Shown here in pieces: positions 13,653-55,648 of a stretch of 64,000 bases of DNA; position 1 is the first letter of the stretch, and each line of letters begins with the position of its first letter. The translations under genes and the position numbers were made by a program. Origin of the DNA: Flavobacteriales bacterium (lineage in GTDB: Bacteria; Bacteroidota; Bacteroidia; Flavobacteriales_E; Vicingaceae); NCBI GenBank assembly GCA_002706365.1, contig PALM01000040.1:1-64000 (forward strand), read 5' to 3'. The notes under the pieces were generated by a model. That model made no database searches, was not told the origin of the DNA, and saw only the letters and a list, made by a program, of their open reading frames with translations.

Positions 13653-14255
13653 ATGTACGCAATTGTAGAGATAGCAGGGCAACAGTTCAAAGTTGAAAAA
13701 GACCAGCAGATCTTCGTACATCGTTTGGAAGGCAAAGAAGGATCGAAAGTAAATTTCGATAAGGTTTTGTTGACATCAGATGGTAAGAAGGTTGAAGTTG
13801 GCGCCCCAGCTGTAAAAGGTGTATCTGTATCAGCGAAGATCGTTGAGCACCTGAAAGGCGACAAAGTGATCGTCTTCAAAAAGAAAAGAAGAAAAGGCTA
13901 TAAGGTGAAAAACGGTCACCGTCAGGCCATGTCTAAGATCCAGATTGAAGCTATTGGCGCTTCTAAAGCTGCACCAAAGGCTGCTGCTAAGAAAGAGGAA
14001 GCACCTAAAGCGGAAGCAAAAGCAGAGACTAAAGCTAGTACTGCTAAGACTGCTACTAAGAAGCCAGCTGCTAAAAAGACAGCTACTAAAGCTTCTTCTG
14101 CTAAGACTACTGCAAAGAAGTCTACTTCAACTGCGAAGAAAACAAGTACAACAAAAGCTAAGCCTGCTGCTAAAAAAGCTCCAGCTGCTAAGAAGACTAG
14201 CACTACAAAAGCAAAAAGCACTGGTACTAAGAAAAGCGACGATAAGAAAAAGTAA
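13653..14255 (+). CDS. rplU: 50S ribosomal protein L21 with long Lys/Ala-rich C-terminal extension
   Basis: Residues 1-103 are a normal bL21 (MYAIVEIAGQQFKVEKDQQI, KRRKGYKVKNGHRQ, MSKIQIEAI). After this the protein runs on to 200 residues with a low-complexity Lys/Ala/Thr/Ser tail (AAAKKEEAPKAEAKAE, then repeated AKKT/TTKAKPAAKK-like units). The tail resembles histone H1-like tails and roughly doubles the protein. bL21 binds 23S rRNA in the large subunit. The tail would be disordered and could contact rRNA or nucleoid; that is inference. The rpmA gene follows 42 bases later. Confidence 0.95.
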   Translation: MYAIVEIAGQQFKVEKDQQIFVHRLEGKEGSKVNFDKVLLTSDGKKVEVGAPAVKGVSVSAKIVEHLKGDKVIVFKKKRRKGYKVKNGHRQAMSKIQIEAIGASKAAPKAAAKKEEAPKAEAKAETKASTAKTATKKPAAKKTATKASSAKTTAKKSTSTAKKTSTTKAKPAAKKAPAAKKTSTTKAKSTGTKKSDDKKK

Positions 14256-24502: not shown

Positions 24503-25498
24503 ATGCAAGGCGTAAAGACATTAAGCGAGTTCATAATTGAACGACAAGAAGATTTTCCATTTGCCAGCGGTGAATTCAGCCGACTGATGAACGATATAGT
24601 GATCGCATCAAAGATCATCAACAGAGAGGTGAATAAAGCCGGCTTGGTTGAGATCCTAGGAGCTACCGAGAATGAAAATGTGCAGGGAGAAACCCAACAA
24701 AAATTGGATGTTTTTGCAGATGAGCAATTCATTTCTGCTCTGCAAAATGGTGGTGAAGCTTGTGGAATAGCCTCTGAAGAGAATGATGATTTCGTCGCTT
24801 TCGATAATGAGCGATCAAAGCAAGGTAAGTACATCGTTGTATTCGATCCATTGGATGGCTCTTCAAATATTGATGTGAATGTGTCTATTGGAACCATTTT
24901 TAGCATCTACAGAAGAAAGACAGAGATCGGCCAGAAGGCAGAACTGAAAGATTTTCTTCAATCTGGACGTGAGCAAGTAGCCGCCGGTTATGTGATCTAT
25001 GGCTCTTCCACTATGCTGGTTTACACTACTGGTAACGGAGTAAATGGTTTTACCCTTGATCCTTCTATTGGTGAATTCTGTCTATCTCATCCCAATATGA
25101 AATGTCCTTCAAATGGCAAGATCTACTCCATCAACGAAGGCAAAAGAGCTGAGTTTTCCAATGCTGTTCAGAGCTATTTGGATTATGTTAAAGAAGATGA
25201 CAAATCGACCAAAAGACCTTATGCTTGTCGCTACATTGGCTCAATGGTGGCCGATTTACATAGAAATCTTCTAAAAGGTGGGATTTTTATGTATCCGGAA
25301 AGCAAAAGTGCTCCAAATGGGAAATTGCGCCTGCTGTACGAATGCAATCCAATGGGCTTCATTATGGAACAAGCCGGTGGTAAGGCACATAGCGGATCAA
25401 TAAATATCATGGATATTGAGCCAGAATCACTTCATCAAAGGGTGCCAATCTTAATTGGATCCACTGAAATGGTAGATAAAGTGCTGAGCTATTATTAG
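24503..25498 (+). CDS. fbp: Class I fructose-1,6-bisphosphatase
   Basis: A 331-residue class I FBPase that makes fructose 6-phosphate, the committed step of gluconeogenesis. The metal/phosphate motif [18 protein letters not shown] is intact, as are [36 protein letters not shown] and the closing [19 protein letters not shown]. It is read divergently from the GNAT-lysC pair, with 85 bases between starts. The histidine kinase gene follows 36 bases downstream and may be partly cotranscribed. Confidence 0.96.
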
Positions 25499-25534
25499 AA
25501 ATAATATCTTTAGCTTTCTAACCCACTCCACTAA

Positions 25535-27601
25535 ATGCCAGCTAAATACTGGAAAAACTTATTATACCTCCTCCTGATTGCGGCAGCGCCCTTACAAGCT
25601 TGGGCGCAACTCGATAGTATACAAGCTCTGGTAGATTCTGAGAATAAGGAAAAGCATTTTTCCGGACTTATAGGCCTAGCAGAGTATTATTTCGAAGAAG
25701 ATGATACGCTAACTAGCTATGTATTGGAGCGTGCCAATCTAGAAGATGCCGACCTACCCGATGAGCTTTACAGAGAACTCACCGAGCGGAAGGCTGAAGT
25801 CATCAAGCGGCTTTTCAATTATGATGAAGGAGTAAAAGTGCTGGATAAGGCACTTAAGTATTCCGAAGAACGGAAAGACTCCATTTCAATGGCCAAATGG
25901 TATGAGTTGAAGTCGGGATATTATTACTACCTCTTCAAATACGACTCATGCAGATATTCCTTGAATAAAGGAATAGAGATCCTTGACAGCCTGGGTTTAG
26001 AACAAGAAAAAGGAAACCTAATCTTGAAGTCGGGAGTGGTAGATTACGCACTTGGCAACTATGAGAAAGCTATTAAAAGCGCCTTTGAAGCCACCGATAT
26101 CTTTAAAAATAGCAATGAGGATAAGCAATTAGGGGTTGCATATCTTCAATTGGGTAACATCCATTATTTCCTCAAAAGCTATGATGAAGCTGAAACCTAT
26201 TATGATCTGGCTGCTGTACACTTCAAAAAGGCCGAAGATGATTATGGCTATCAAAATGCCATTTCGAATACCGGTTTAGTCAATATAGAAAGAGGCGAAT
26301 ACTTCAAGGGCATTCAATTACAACATAAAGCTTTGCGACAGTTTCGCAAAGAGAAGCGCTATCAGGAAATTGGAAATAGCTATTACTATTTGGGGAAAGC
26401 CCACAATGGTATGAAAGATTACGATAGTTCTGATTATTATCTGGATCTATCGATTCTCTCAAATACGAAATCCAATTATGATATAGGAATTGGCTATGCC
26501 TATTGGATCAAGGCAGATAATGAACTTGCTAGAAATAAGATCGACTCAGCTCTGCACCACAACCAATTAGCACTCAACATTCTTCAAAAAGTTGAAAATT
26601 TCGAGCTGGAAAAACTCATTCAGAAGCAACGCTCTCACTTATTAGAACGACAGAACAAACACAAAGAAGCACTGGCCGCACTCAAGAGAAGCGTGCTTAT
26701 TGAAGATAGTCTGGATATTGATTATGAATCGCTCAATGAAATGGCCAGCAACCAAAGAGCCAAGCTAGAGAGTGCTGAATACGAGCTAAAATTGGCGCGA
26801 CAAAAAGGTGAGCAGCAAGCGATCGAGAATAAGCGTCAGCAACAATTCATTATTGCCATTTCGATCATCGCCTTCTTGCTGATCTTCTTTGTGATCGGCT
26901 TGGTAATGACCAATCGTCGAAATCGATCCTTACACAAGCAATTAGTGGAAAACAGAGACACCATTGAACATGAGCTCATCACCAAGAAAGCCCTGCTCAA
27001 AGAGATACATCATAGGGTGAAGAACAACCTACAGATTATCTCCTCTATGCTGAGCATTCAATCTCAGTATACCAATGATTCCAGACTGGATGAAGTGATC
27101 GGTGAATGTCGCTCGCGCATTGTTTCTATGTCGCTCATTCACGAGAGTCTCTACAAAAAGGAAGATGATGAGAAGTCGCTTTTCAGCAATTATATCAAAC
27201 AGCTGATGCCTCAGCTTATCGATACTTATCATATTGATAAGAGCAAGATCGACCTAAAGATGAATATCGAGGAATTCGAGCTTTCTTTGGATGATTCTGT
27301 GCCTTGCGGACTCCTCATCAACGAAATTGTGTCCAATTCATTGAAACACGCCTTTCCTGATGGAACTAATGGTCGCATCGACTTGAAAATGTTCAAAGAT
27401 GGCAGGAATATGGTCTTGCAGATCTCAGATAATGGAGTAGGGCTGAAAAAAGAGGTAGATCCTGAATCTCAGGACACTTTTGGCTTTCTATTGATCTATA
27501 CTTTAGCCGCTCAACTAGAAGCAACAATCGTTATCAGTCGCGAAGGCGGTGTGGCCTTCGATATTCGTTGGGAAACCAAAATGGATAAACTACTAAGTTA
27601 G
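25535..27601 (+). CDS. TPR-containing membrane sensor histidine kinase (HisKA_2 type)
   Basis: A 688-residue sensor kinase. It has a signal peptide (LLYLLLIAAAPLQAWAQ), a periplasmic region with several TPR units from about residue 60 to 370 (AYLQLGNIHYFLKSYDEAET and neighbours), a coiled coil, and a membrane helix (IIAISIIAFLLIFFVIGLVM, about 440-460). The HisKA_2 phosphoacceptor box EIHHRVKNNLQIISSMLS and an ATPase domain with DNGVGL follow. Such kinases usually act with a separate response regulator, often LytTR type, but none lies beside it. The signal is unknown; TPRs suggest sensing through a protein partner. Confidence 0.87.
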   Translation: MPAKYWKNLLYLLLIAAAPLQAWAQLDSIQALVDSENKEKHFSGLIGLAEYYFEEDDTLTSYVLERANLEDADLPDELYRELTERKAEVIKRLFNYDEGVKVLDKALKYSEERKDSISMAKWYELKSGYYYYLFKYDSCRYSLNKGIEILDSLGLEQEKGNLILKSGVVDYALGNYEKAIKSAFEATDIFKNSNEDKQLGVAYLQLGNIHYFLKSYDEAETYYDLAAVHFKKAEDDYGYQNAISNTGLVNIERGEYFKGIQLQHKALRQFRKEKRYQEIGNSYYYLGKAHNGMKDYDSSDYYLDLSILSNTKSNYDIGIGYAYWIKADNELARNKIDSALHHNQLALNILQKVENFELEKLIQKQRSHLLERQNKHKEALAALKRSVLIEDSLDIDYESLNEMASNQRAKLESAEYELKLARQKGEQQAIENKRQQQFIIAISIIAFLLIFFVIGLVMTNRRNRSLHKQLVENRDTIEHELITKKALLKEIHHRVKNNLQIISSMLSIQSQYTNDSRLDEVIGECRSRIVSMSLIHESLYKKEDDEKSLFSNYIKQLMPQLIDTYHIDKSKIDLKMNIEEFELSLDDSVPCGLLINEIVSNSLKHAFPDGTNGRIDLKMFKDGRNMVLQISDNGVGLKKEVDPESQDTFGFLLIYTLAAQLEATIVISREGGVAFDIRWETKMDKLLS

Positions 27602-52147: not shown

Positions 52148-52825
52148 ATGAAAAAAGAAAAAATTCTCCTGGTCGACGATGAAGCGGATATCCTAGAGAT
52201 CGTTGGCTATAACCTGAAGAAAGAGGGTTACGAGGTTACCACAACAGACAATGGCAAAGACGCAATAAAGCTTGCCAAAAAAGAAAATCCCGACCTTATC
52301 ATTTTGGATGTAATGATGCCAGAGATGGATGGAATGGAAACTTGCTATCAAATGCGCAATATTCCTACACTCAAAGACACCTTAATTGCCTTCTTAACTG
52401 CCAGAGGAGAAGATTATTCTCAAATTGCCGGTTTTGATGCCGGTGCTGATGACTATATCACTAAACCGGTTAAGCCTAGAGTGCTTGTAAGTAAGGTAAA
52501 GGCTATTCTGCGAAGAAAAGGTGGTAGTGTATCCGTTGAAGAAGATATTGAGGTTGGCGGTATCTCTATAGATCGAGAAAGATACTTGATCAAAAAAGAT
52601 GGTGAAGAAATCAACCTTCCTAAAAAAGAATTCGAACTCCTTTCTCTTCTCATGAGCAAACCCGGTAGAGTTTACACTCGAGAGGTAATCATGAATAACA
52701 TCTGGGGTGGAGAAGTAGTCGTTGGCGACCGTACCATAGATGTACATATTAGAAAGCTAAGAGAAAAACTAGGCGATAGCTACATAAAAACCGTCAAAGG
52801 TGTAGGCTATAAATTTGAAGCCTAG
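52148..52825 (+). CDS. phoB: OmpR-family response regulator, PhoB/PhoP-like
   Basis: A 225-residue response regulator. The receiver domain (about 1-120) has the acidic pair in LLVDDEADILE, the phosphoacceptor Asp in LIILDVMMPEMDGME, the conserved Thr in FLTARGE and Lys in YITKPVKP. The C-terminal winged-helix domain shows LPKKEFELLSLLMSKPGRVYTRE, RTIDVHIRKLREKLGD and IKTVKGVGYKF. It closely resembles the PhoB/PhoP regulators of phosphate starvation in Bacteroidota. The cognate kinase follows at once. Phosphate is the best guess for its signal but is not proven by sequence. Confidence 0.85.
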   Translation: MKKEKILLVDDEADILEIVGYNLKKEGYEVTTTDNGKDAIKLAKKENPDLIILDVMMPEMDGMETCYQMRNIPTLKDTLIAFLTARGEDYSQIAGFDAGADDYITKPVKPRVLVSKVKAILRRKGGSVSVEEDIEVGGISIDRERYLIKKDGEEINLPKKEFELLSLLMSKPGRVYTREVIMNNIWGGEVVVGDRTIDVHIRKLREKLGDSYIKTVKGVGYKFEA

Positions 52826-52862
52826 TTCACCTAAATATACCGGAAAACCCTTAGTTTTAAGG

Positions 52863-53903
52863 ATGCGCAATCTCACGCCCAAACAATTGGCTTATAGGTT
52901 GTCTTTGCTGATTGCTGCGCTTATTACTGTGCTTAGCAGCCTGCTTTGGATGATCAATTACCCACTAGAATGGTATCTAGTGGTACTCACCTTTTTGATC
53001 TCCTTTCTCACCTGCTACTTCATCTTTCTCTGGGGTATTCGCCAATTCATTGATCGAAAATTCCGTTTGATCTATAAAACCATCCACAATTTGAAAGTCG
53101 GTTTGAAAAGAGAACCCCAAAAAGTGGATATGAGTGAAGATGTCTTTGGCAGGATTAGACAAGAGGTGATCGATTGGGATAAACGGAATAGAAAAGAGAT
53201 TGCCAGACTTACAGATCAAGAAAAATTTCGCCGAGAATTCCTCGGCAATGTATCCCATGAGCTAAAAACCCCCATATTTAGCATACAGGGATACATTCTT
53301 ACTTTATTAGAAGGTGGATTGGAAGACAAAAAAATCAATAGGAACTTCCTGCTCAAAGCCGAAAAAAGTATCAATCGTATGATTGAAATGGTCGATGATC
53401 TGGATGAGATCTCGAAATTGGAATCTAATCGTATGGTGTTGGATATCAAAAGATTCGATCTGCTAGCATTGACCAAAGAGATCATTGAGTCTTTGGAATA
53501 CAAAGCCAAGAAAAAGAAGATCAGTCTGCGAATGAACACCGACCAAAAGAATATATTTGTAAAGGCAGATCCAGCGAGAATTAGCCAAGTAATTACCAAT
53601 TTACTCGTCAATTCGATCAATTACGGTAAGGAAGATGGCAGAACTACGGTTAAATTCTTCGATTTGGACGAGAATGTATTGGTTGAAGTAGGAGATAATG
53701 GAAGGGGAATTGAGGCCGAACATCTACCCCGACTATTTGAGCGTTTTTACAGGGTTGATAAGGGTAGGTCGCGAAGCGATGGAGGCTCTGGATTAGGCCT
53801 TGCTATTGTAAAACACATAATGGAAGCTCATCAGCAAACCATTAATGTGAGAAGTAAAGTTGGAGAGGGTTCCGTTTTCTCTTTTACCCTTGAAAAAGCA
53901 TAG
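52863..53903 (+). CDS. phoR: Sensor histidine kinase, PhoR-like
   Basis: A 346-residue membrane kinase with two helices at the N-terminus (LSLLIAALITVLSSLLWMIN, YLVVLTFLISFLTCYFIFLW) and almost no periplasmic loop between them. The HisKA box is FLGNVSHELKTPIFSIQGY; ATPase motifs are VITNLLVNSINYG (N box), VGDNGRGIE and GGSGLGLAIVKHIM. Without a periplasmic sensor it probably takes its cue from a transport complex, as PhoR does from Pst/PhoU. A TTG start at 52815, overlapping phoB by 11 bases, would add 16 residues; I prefer ATG 52863. Confidence 0.85.
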   Translation: MRNLTPKQLAYRLSLLIAALITVLSSLLWMINYPLEWYLVVLTFLISFLTCYFIFLWGIRQFIDRKFRLIYKTIHNLKVGLKREPQKVDMSEDVFGRIRQEVIDWDKRNRKEIARLTDQEKFRREFLGNVSHELKTPIFSIQGYILTLLEGGLEDKKINRNFLLKAEKSINRMIEMVDDLDEISKLESNRMVLDIKRFDLLALTKEIIESLEYKAKKKKISLRMNTDQKNIFVKADPARISQVITNLLVNSINYGKEDGRTTVKFFDLDENVLVEVGDNGRGIEAEHLPRLFERFYRVDKGRSRSDGGSGLGLAIVKHIMEAHQQTINVRSKVGEGSVFSFTLEKA

Positions 53904-54023
53904 TGGTTCTTCTTCTTTCTAATTCAGCTATTTTTGGTGGCAATATTTTTTCACTTTGATGCAACCATTAGTTAAAGATTTGCATCTTCTAATAATAATA
54001 GCTTGAGCAAAGCTGGAGGACAC

Positions 54024-54563
54024 ATGAACGATGAGGAAATGCTGGAAGGCTGCATGGCCAAAGACTCTAAAGCACAGCGTTACCTCTACGAGCGCTATAA
54101 GCGCATAATGACGGGGGTTTGCATGAGATATGCAGACCGTTATGAGGAGGCTCAAGATATTGTACAAAACGGATTTATCAAGGTATTTAAAAAGATAGAT
54201 ACCTTTTCCGGCAAAGGTTCTTTAGAAGGTTGGATTAGAAGGATTATGGTGAATACCGCCTTAGATCACTTGAGAAGCAACAAAGCTGAGCGATTTAACG
54301 TAAACATCGAAGATGTTGACTACAAATTGAAGAAGGATGAGTTGATTCTGGACGCTCTGCAAGCTGAAGACTTGCTTAAACTAATAAGGGAGCTGCCAAT
54401 TGGGTATCGAACGGTTTTTAACCTATATGCAATAGAAGGTTATTCGCATAAAGAGATCGCCGATCAAATGGATATCTCTGAAAATACTTCGAAATCTCAA
54501 TATTCAAGAGCTAGAGCATTATTGAAAAAGAAATTATCTGAAATAGAAAGCCAACAAGATTGA
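54024..54563 (+). CDS. ECF-type RNA polymerase sigma factor
   Basis: A sigma-70 family extracytoplasmic-function factor of about 179 residues. Region 2 is seen in AQRYLYERYKRIMTGVCMRY, EEAQDIVQNGFIKVFKKIDTF and GWIRRIMVNTALDHLRSN. Region 4 contains LPIGYRTVFNLYAIEGYSHK and KEIADQMDISENTSKSQYSRARALL, the DNA-binding helix-turn-helix. An in-frame TTG at 54003 would add seven residues. It overlaps the next gene (TTGA), the usual layout for a sigma with its membrane regulator. Confidence 0.92.
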   Translation: MNDEEMLEGCMAKDSKAQRYLYERYKRIMTGVCMRYADRYEEAQDIVQNGFIKVFKKIDTFSGKGSLEGWIRRIMVNTALDHLRSNKAERFNVNIEDVDYKLKKDELILDALQAEDLLKLIRELPIGYRTVFNLYAIEGYSHKEIADQMDISENTSKSQYSRARALLKKKLSEIESQQD

Positions 54564-55648
54564 AAGAAGGCAATAACATAGAAAAACTCTTTAGAGACGG
54601 CTTCGAGAAATACGAAGTTGATCCTGGAGATCAGCTGTGGGATAAGATCCAAACGGAAATTCCTACAGAGGGTGTCGCTGAATCTGCTACGCAGTCGGCT
54701 GGCTCTGCAGCAAGTGCTGGCAGCAGCTGGTTAACTACTGTAGTGGTTGGTGGTGCAATTGGTATTGTTTCAGTTGCTGGCTATTACTATTTCGAGAATA
54801 AGGCTGAGAAGCTTAAAGACAATAAGCAAAAAGAGCAGCTGATCGACACGAATAAAACCGACGATCAGAATTTTGACAAGTCTACAGAGGATGCTAAAAC
54901 CTTAAGCATTACGGATGAGAATTCGAAAAGTGATATTGAGAACTCAAGTAGTGATCAAAACAACACTTTAGAAGATGTTACCTCTTCTGCTAAGACTGAG
55001 AAGACCTCAACTGAAGACACTAAGACGAATACTACTAAGCAGTTGAATTCTTCTCAGACTAGCAGAGAAGAATCAGCAAGTGAAATCGCTTCTGATGAGA
55101 CTAAAGAACAGCCGACTCAAACTACCGAGTCTGCCGATCAGGAAAGTACTTATGACAATACTTCTAGCAATAGCTCTAATCAGATCAATGCTTCTGATGC
55201 TGTTGAAGAAAAGTCGAATCCGAGTGTAGCTGAACCTACCAATTCAAATAGTTCAACTGAAGAAGGAAAAGAGAATAAGGTTGAAAAAGGCGGCAATTCA
55301 GTTAATGATCCGGTCTTAACACCTCCTTCAAATAGTGTGGATGAAACTCCGGGTGTAATTGAAGCTTACAAACCAGCAAACGTATTTTCTCCAAATGGCG
55401 ATGGCCAAAATGATGTGTTTGAACTTAGTGATTTGGCTGAACATGAGTTGGATGATGTTGAAGTGCAAATATTCTCCAGAACAAATACCCTAATCCACAG
55501 CTGGAAAGGTGTATATGGTTATTGGGATGGAAAAGGTCGCGATGGCACCTTGGCTCCTGAAGGGATTTACTTCTACATCGTAAATATTTCCAAAGAGGGG
55601 AAATTGTATCAGAAGAAAGGTACTGTTACCTTGATAAGAGACAATTAG
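54560..55648 (+). CDS. Membrane protein with anti-sigma-like N-terminus and gliding-type (CHU_C) C-terminal domain
   Basis: A 362-residue protein in three parts. Residues 1-45 are cytosolic, with LFRDGFEKYEVDPGDQLWDKI, a short motif common in Bacteroidota partners of ECF sigma factors. A membrane helix follows (WLTTVVVGGAIGIVSVAGYY, about 53-73), then about 190 residues of Ser/Thr/Asn/Glu-rich low complexity. The C-terminal 90 residues (VFSPNGDGQNDVFEL, GYWDGKGRDGTLAPEGIYFY) are a type-B T9SS/gliding-associated C-terminal domain. The start is TTG at 54560, coupled to the sigma gene. A tethered anti-sigma with an envelope sensor domain is my inference. No cleavable signal peptide is present. 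Confidence 0.78.
   Translation: MKEGNNIEKLFRDGFEKYEVDPGDQLWDKIQTEIPTEGVAESATQSAGSAASAGSSWLTTVVVGGAIGIVSVAGYYYFENKAEKLKDNKQKEQLIDTNKTDDQNFDKSTEDAKTLSITDENSKSDIENSSSDQNNTLEDVTSSAKTEKTSTEDTKTNTTKQLNSSQTSREESASEIASDETKEQPTQTTESADQESTYDNTSSNSSNQINASDAVEEKSNPSVAEPTNSNSSTEEGKENKVEKGGNSVNDPVLTPPSNSVDETPGVIEAYKPANVFSPNGDGQNDVFELSDLAEHELDDVEVQIFSRTNTLIHSWKGVYGYWDGKGRDGTLAPEGIYFYIVNISKEGKLYQKKGTVTLIRDN

Follow-up and report, generated by a model that had tools for sequence, protein, structure and literature searches.

A predicted membrane anti-sigma factor with a type IX secretion type B-like C-terminal domain, encoded behind an ECF sigma gene in a Flavobacteriales bacterium

The sigma gene and its membrane partner

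In the window (the whole 64,000-nucleotide stretch of Flavobacteriales DNA analysed here), a gene for an ECF sigma factor is followed by a gene of the same orientation that overlaps it by 4 nt, the partner starting at 54560 and the sigma stop lying at 54563 (Table 1). The sigma protein matched Sigma70_r2 (E 1e-18) and Sigma70_r4_2 (E 9e-18), and an alternative in-frame TTG start of its gene is found at 54003. An earlier note on this DNA had described the pair as an ECF sigma factor and a partner with an anti-sigma-like N-terminus, a membrane helix, an acidic linker and a CHU_C domain, and this description was confirmed by Pfam and TIGR matches, AlphaFold2 modelling and composition.

Table 1. 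Features of the sigma/anti-sigma locus, with positions in the window
Feature	Position	Strand	Details
OmpR-type response regulator and histidine kinase, immediately upstream of sigma	52148..53903	+	context
Predicted ECF promoter of the sigma/anti-sigma operon, TGCAACC-N16-CATCT	53958..53988	+	~37 nt upstream of sigma ATG
ECF sigma-70 factor	54024..54563	+	ATG start, 179 aa; Pfam Sigma70_r2, Sigma70_r4_2 and TIGR02937 above cut-off
Predicted membrane anti-sigma factor with C-terminal type IX secretion system (T9SS) type B-like domain	54560..55648	+	TTG start, 362 aa
N-terminal anti-sigma module, residues 7-33	54578..54658	+	two short helices, invariant Trp27 (AlphaFold2; alignment)
Single membrane helix	54728..54820	+	hydropathy best 56-74; AlphaFold2 helix 66-87
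Disordered acidic Ser/Thr/Asn linker, residues 88-265	54821..55354	+	pLDDT mostly <55; composition
CHU_C / T9SS type B-like C-terminal domain (CTD), residues 270-360	55367..55639	+	PF13585 and TIGR04131 above cut-off
Site of the cargo I-F/Y-N-R-W-G motif, here IFSRTN	55469..55486	+	aromatic residue missing

The AlphaFold2 model of the 362-aa partner, run with 44 homologues, placed helices at residues 7-16 and 23-33, a hydrophobic helix at about 57-87 and disorder at 88-265, and modelled the CTD (270-360) with pLDDT >90. Trp27 of the N-terminal module is invariant across the 44 homologues. The linker (178 aa) consists largely of Ser (17%), Thr (14%), Glu (12%), Asn (11%) and Asp (9%), with 38 acidic versus 16 basic residues. 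The match to CHU_C (PF13585) covers residues 273-358 (E 1.4e-16, 60.8 bits, cut-off 27), and TIGR04131, the type B sorting domain, scored 45 bits (cut-off 35). Hydropathy analysis of the partner revealed no Sec signal peptide; since the first hydrophobic stretch begins only at residue 56, the protein is expected to lack an ordinary cleavable signal peptide, in agreement with the earlier note.

The two genes are adjacent and co-oriented, the partner is a single-pass protein and the pair occurs in many genomes, which together give good support to the assignment as an ECF sigma factor and its cognate membrane anti-sigma factor, the partner being predicted to bind the sigma. Flanking charge is higher on the N side of the helix in 23 of 24 members of the barrel class described below, in 17 of 21 members of the short class and in 28 of the 44 CHU_C proteins, so that an N-inside topology is favoured in the first two classes and in those 28 of the third. 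The window protein's own subclade has a positively charged flank after the helix, and charge alone therefore leaves the topology in this subclade ambiguous.

The response regulator upstream of the sigma gene is of the OmpR type with a Trans_reg_C domain; a PorX-type regulator would be marked by a PglZ domain. This two-component system is probably a separate unit from the sigma/anti-sigma pair; it was considered as a part of the circuit and set aside, its conserved neighbourhood in several family members being the only link, although it may have some functional connection with the pair. Elsewhere in the window, positions 13653-14255 encode a homologue of ribosomal protein L21 with a Lys/Ala/Thr-rich, histone-like C-terminal tail of ~95 residues.

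Relatives of the pair and their C-terminal classes

We found 44 anti-sigma/CHU_C proteins adjoining related sigma factors, in Flavobacteriales and some Bacteroidales, and a second ECF sigma/CHU_C anti-sigma pair in the same genome beside gyrB (L291:852-2760; G000 contig C47, ~24650-26560), whose anti-sigma possesses a PKD-like region. The conservation of the gene pair, which the earlier note had proposed as a check, was thus observed. About 20 of 60 relatives match over most or all of the window protein, and family members retain the neighbourhood, in which the pair lies between a two-component system and metH. Because both the pairing and the architecture are conserved across many genomes, they lie far beyond chance. 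The partner might otherwise be read as ordinary T9SS cargo with an odd signal anchor, encoded by chance behind a sigma gene, as its TIGR04131 score above cut-off could indicate; this is very improbable given the sigma pairing in 44 proteins, the homology of its N-terminal module with barrel-type anti-sigmas, the missing signal peptide and the loss of the cargo motif.

A PKD domain match was seen in 9 of the 44 anti-sigmas, in L043 between tether and CTD. At L043:2728-4055, a second tandem sigma/anti-sigma pair (short, 249 aa) directly follows a sigma/CHU_C anti-sigma pair.

To survey what related sigma factors are paired with, we took 80 related sigma genes from other Bacteroidota and examined the gene downstream of each. 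Almost always it encodes the same short N-terminal module and one membrane helix, continued by a CHU_C domain in 30 cases, by a 395-515 aa form in 24 and by no recognisable domain in another 24 (3 truncated). Members of the 395-515 aa class mostly have recognisable barrels (OMP_b-brl_2 in 15/24), and in the AlphaFold2 model of a barrel-class protein two helices are followed by a single membrane helix, a disordered stretch and a barrel. When a profile was built from the N-terminal modules of the CHU_C class, it matched 37 of 45 barrel- and short-class members at E<1e-3, including 18 of the 24 in the barrel class. Among 308 background ORFs there were 2 matches, and at least one of these probably represents a further anti-sigma. 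On the sigma tree, members of the same C-terminal class group strongly together, and the three classes change into one another 6 times. At L053:4535-6079, a barrel-class anti-sigma (515 aa) follows a Flavobacteriales sigma that branches within the CHU_C-class sigmas, a candidate for a recent exchange of the C-terminal domain.

The dual membrane-spanning anti-sigma factor Dma consists of an N-terminal module, one helix, a disordered tether and an outer-membrane barrel, as published for Dma2 (PMC13088901). A cognate sigma of group ECF21 is a further mark of the Dma family. The window protein resembles it in its adjacent ECF sigma, its predicted sigma-binding N-terminal module, its one membrane helix, its long disordered tether and its C-terminal outer-envelope domain, and its barrel-type relatives are likewise encoded downstream of sigmas related to the one in the window. 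It differs from Dma in that the CTD is a T9SS type B-like Ig fold instead of an outer-membrane barrel and that the predicted regulon includes cargo-gene promoters. Since the same N-terminal module and helix, behind the same sigma family, also precede a barrel or no CTD at all, the window protein can be regarded as a putative Dma-like anti-sigma whose barrel is replaced by a T9SS domain, the comparison being made through the barrel-class relatives.

Of 50 genomes covering all anti-sigma classes, SprA was detected in 49; the remaining one still has 24 CHU_C proteins, and a gap in the assembly probably explains the absence. Since a T9SS is nearly universal among these genomes, its presence cannot separate the anti-sigma classes, and co-occurrence of CHU_C anti-sigmas with T9SS was discarded as uninformative.

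A type B-like domain lacking the R-W-G motif

The CTD of the window protein shares its fold and the motifs PNxDGxND, WDG and GxYxY with T9SS type B cargo such as SprB of F. johnsoniae and PG1035 of P. gingivalis. Unlike such cargo, the protein possesses no Sec signal peptide, a predicted cytosolic N-terminus, no R-W-G and no adjacent porP/sprF; one of four type B cargo features is present (the TIGR04131/PF13585 domain) and three are absent. Structural neighbours of the CTD include T9SS substrate CTDs in the SprA translocon (8glk_D, Z 8.7, 73 aligned, 2.0 Å) as well as the CTDs of PorU and PorZ, and its best solved relative by sequence is the C-terminus of the Aureispira grappling-hook protein. 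As Ig-like folds are common, the fold alone proves little and the sequence motifs carry the assignment; Foldseek matches to streptococcal peptidases and FlgD were dismissed as reflecting this common fold.

Of 54 cargo CTDs, 49 have an arginine with an aromatic residue or Leu directly after it, corresponding to the R-W of I-F/Y-N-R-W-G, versus 0 of 45 anti-sigma CTDs; the cargo sample included cargo of ten genomes that also carry the anti-sigma. The counts were first 49/55 versus 0/44 (Fisher 6e-22, not corrected for shared ancestry); one supposed cargo, L014, turned out to be the second anti-sigma, that of the L291 pair, whose CTD lacks R-W-G as well, and was moved. The anti-sigma CTDs keep the other type B hallmarks, PNxDGxND, W[DN]G and GxYxY. 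In F. johnsoniae, the SprB CTD was no longer secreted when any one of five conserved type B motifs was mutated (PMC12618676); from its order and strand position, we read R-W-G as the second of the five.

This pattern suggests that the anti-sigma CTD may be a cargo mimic that is retained and not secreted, and the missing R-W-G together with the missing signal peptide suggests that the protein likely stays anchored. The earlier note's claim that the partner remains in the inner membrane thereby gains some support, by the absent signal peptide and by the loss of R-W-G in all anti-sigma CTDs.

PorP/SprF-like proteins bind type B CTDs (PMC9143113, PMC12618676). The genome encodes eight PorP/SprF proteins, some of their genes not adjoining a CHU_C gene, and none of the eight is near the sigma/anti-sigma operon; this is not decisive, because orphans exist in F. 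johnsoniae (PMC12618676).

The altered CTD also bears on whether the protein could be a Dma-like general envelope sensor, its Ig-like CTD repurposed for an outer-membrane or peptidoglycan ligand, not for the T9SS, and its sigma serving a broad envelope regulon. With R-W-G lost, binding to a shuttle may be lost too; other family members have a barrel or nothing in the place of the CTD, and Dma1 and Dma2 control vesicles and PULs, not T9SS. Retention of several type B motifs over long divergence argues against such a sensor, which we regard as possible but doubtful.

Sigma-type promoters before cargo genes and a proposed switch

A TGCAACC-N16-C(A/G)TCT element is found just upstream of most related sigma genes across Bacteroidota, the window's included, as would be expected for an autoregulated ECF operon. 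The window promoter scored 27.9-28.2 with position weight matrices of such sites, including a matrix trained without it. The only intergenic match to exact TGCAAC-N17-CATC in the same genome is the sigma operon itself, and a one-mismatch search of this strict CATC-type pattern added a cargo site on C17. The link to cargo emerged only with the CGTC/GTCT -10 variants, which are used by other family promoters; the pattern was widened in this way after a first look at the window's own genome, and enrichment was then assessed by a matrix derived from sigma promoters only.

GCAAC-N17-CGTC matched 13 times genome-wide versus 6 times for the reversed pattern. Intergenic sites lie 75-140 nt before type B cargo genes (2910-aa, 1006-aa and 1585-aa frames, the CHU_C match of the last being below cut-off), and others at the same distance precede genes for a protein with a type A-like CTD, another secreted protein and a lipoprotein; one further site is located 49 nt before a histidine kinase gene. 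At L286:5029 (G000 contig C43, ~50530), a similar site (AGCCAACC...GCGTC) precedes a PorP/SprF-like gene by 47 nt; this gene is transcribed divergently from a CHU_C cargo gene.

The enrichment matrix was trained on 50 promoters of sigma genes, excluding the site in the window, and was applied to the 200 bp upstream of 89 CHU_C cargo and 155 control genes (upstream gap ≥100 bp) in sampled regions of seven genomes. At ≥8 bits, 15 of the 89 cargo genes were matched, versus only the window's own sigma promoter among the 155 controls (Fisher 1.3e-6 as computed). Among 1000 column-permuted matrices, none reached this number of cargo matches, and the rank-test p was equally low in 2. Cargo matches numbered 4/15 in the window's own genome (G000), 7/16 in G067 and 2/12 in G070, where one site reached 27.6 bits, and 1/13, 1/18, 0/7 and 0/8 in the others, all genomes except the window's own being tested with the matrix fixed after the widening. 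As the enrichment is concentrated in three of the seven genomes, only a subset of cargo is implicated. No convincing promoter site was found in the SprA upstream regions of nine genomes, which places this translocon gene outside the predicted set. The cargo promoters could instead be served by some other ECF sigma of similar motif. The second sigma's own promoter (L291) is similar, but its spacing is two bases shorter, a mild argument for assigning the 17-base sites to the window-type sigma.

Promoter matches before lipoprotein genes would suit a general envelope sensor, but the enrichment before T9SS type B cargo speaks against it. The earlier note's suggestion that the partner reports on T9SS gains from the recurrence of the sigma-type promoter before cargo genes, but nothing from T9SS presence, which does not separate the classes.

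Related circuits are known. In P. gingivalis, the cell-surface CTD protein PorA acts via the two-component system PorXY (PMC7712824, PMC4800418) and SigP is an ECF regulator of T9SS genes (PMC4800418). Common to that circuit and the one proposed here is a CTD protein influencing an ECF sigma that controls T9SS genes; unlike the present pair, PorA-PorXY-SigP has no anti-sigma; SigP acts on machine genes, and the motif reported for it is a different one. In F. psychrophilum, the SM6 promoter with its -10 CGT box drives gldN, porU and an ECF/anti-sigma operon (PMC9723704), so that the -10 CGT box and the union of T9SS genes with an ECF sigma/anti-sigma operon in one regulon recur, with machine genes there versus type B cargo here. 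Neither of these precedents for ECF control is known to use a sensor of the present kind. A literature search, which was not exhaustive, returned no description of an anti-sigma fused to a T9SS domain.

As the best explanation of the whole, we propose with even confidence a secretion-coupled switch for T9SS cargo. The cytosolic N-terminal module of the anti-sigma would hold the sigma, one helix would cross the inner membrane, and the disordered tether would carry the sensor domain towards the outer membrane. This sensor, derived from a T9SS type B sorting signal and lacking R-W-G, would act as a cargo mimic, docking on a PorP/SprF-type shuttle or on the T9SS in competition with real cargo, itself not exported. 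Docking on a PorP/SprF shuttle would make the Dma-like protein a two-piece device, its barrel supplied in trans. Docking or displacement would change the tether together with the part in the inner membrane, which would probably become accessible to regulated proteolysis; the sigma freed in this way would transcribe its own operon and a gene set including T9SS type B cargo. The likeliest logic would be that free secretion capacity relieves inhibition and turns cargo synthesis on and that saturation turns it off, which is simplest because the predicted targets are cargo genes.

The same parts would also allow another logic, in which the T9SS engages the CTD of the anchored protein as cargo and the pull leads to cleavage of the anti-sigma, so that secretion activity turns the sigma on. 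A type B-like CTD on a long flexible tether and a motor-driven T9SS would suit such pulling; it is indistinguishable by sequence from the switch proposed above, but the loss of R-W-G argues against recognition of the CTD as exportable cargo, and we consider it unlikely.

The secretion-coupled switch would amount to a T9SS checkpoint, a role that we put forward more tentatively than the switch itself: an inner-membrane anti-sigma bearing a non-exportable mimic of the sorting signal would sense free shuttles or translocons and so match cargo transcription to capacity. We know of no mechanism that adjusts cargo synthesis in Bacteroidota to T9SS capacity; the connection between a CTD protein and an ECF sigma in P. 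gingivalis is only an indirect one (PMC7712824, PMC4800418). A widespread anti-sigma with a T9SS sorting domain, together with a sigma-type promoter before cargo genes, provides a concrete and testable link. The outer end of Dma-type anti-sigmas appears as a swappable module, being a barrel, a T9SS domain or none, and one scaffold may therefore report on different outer-envelope processes.
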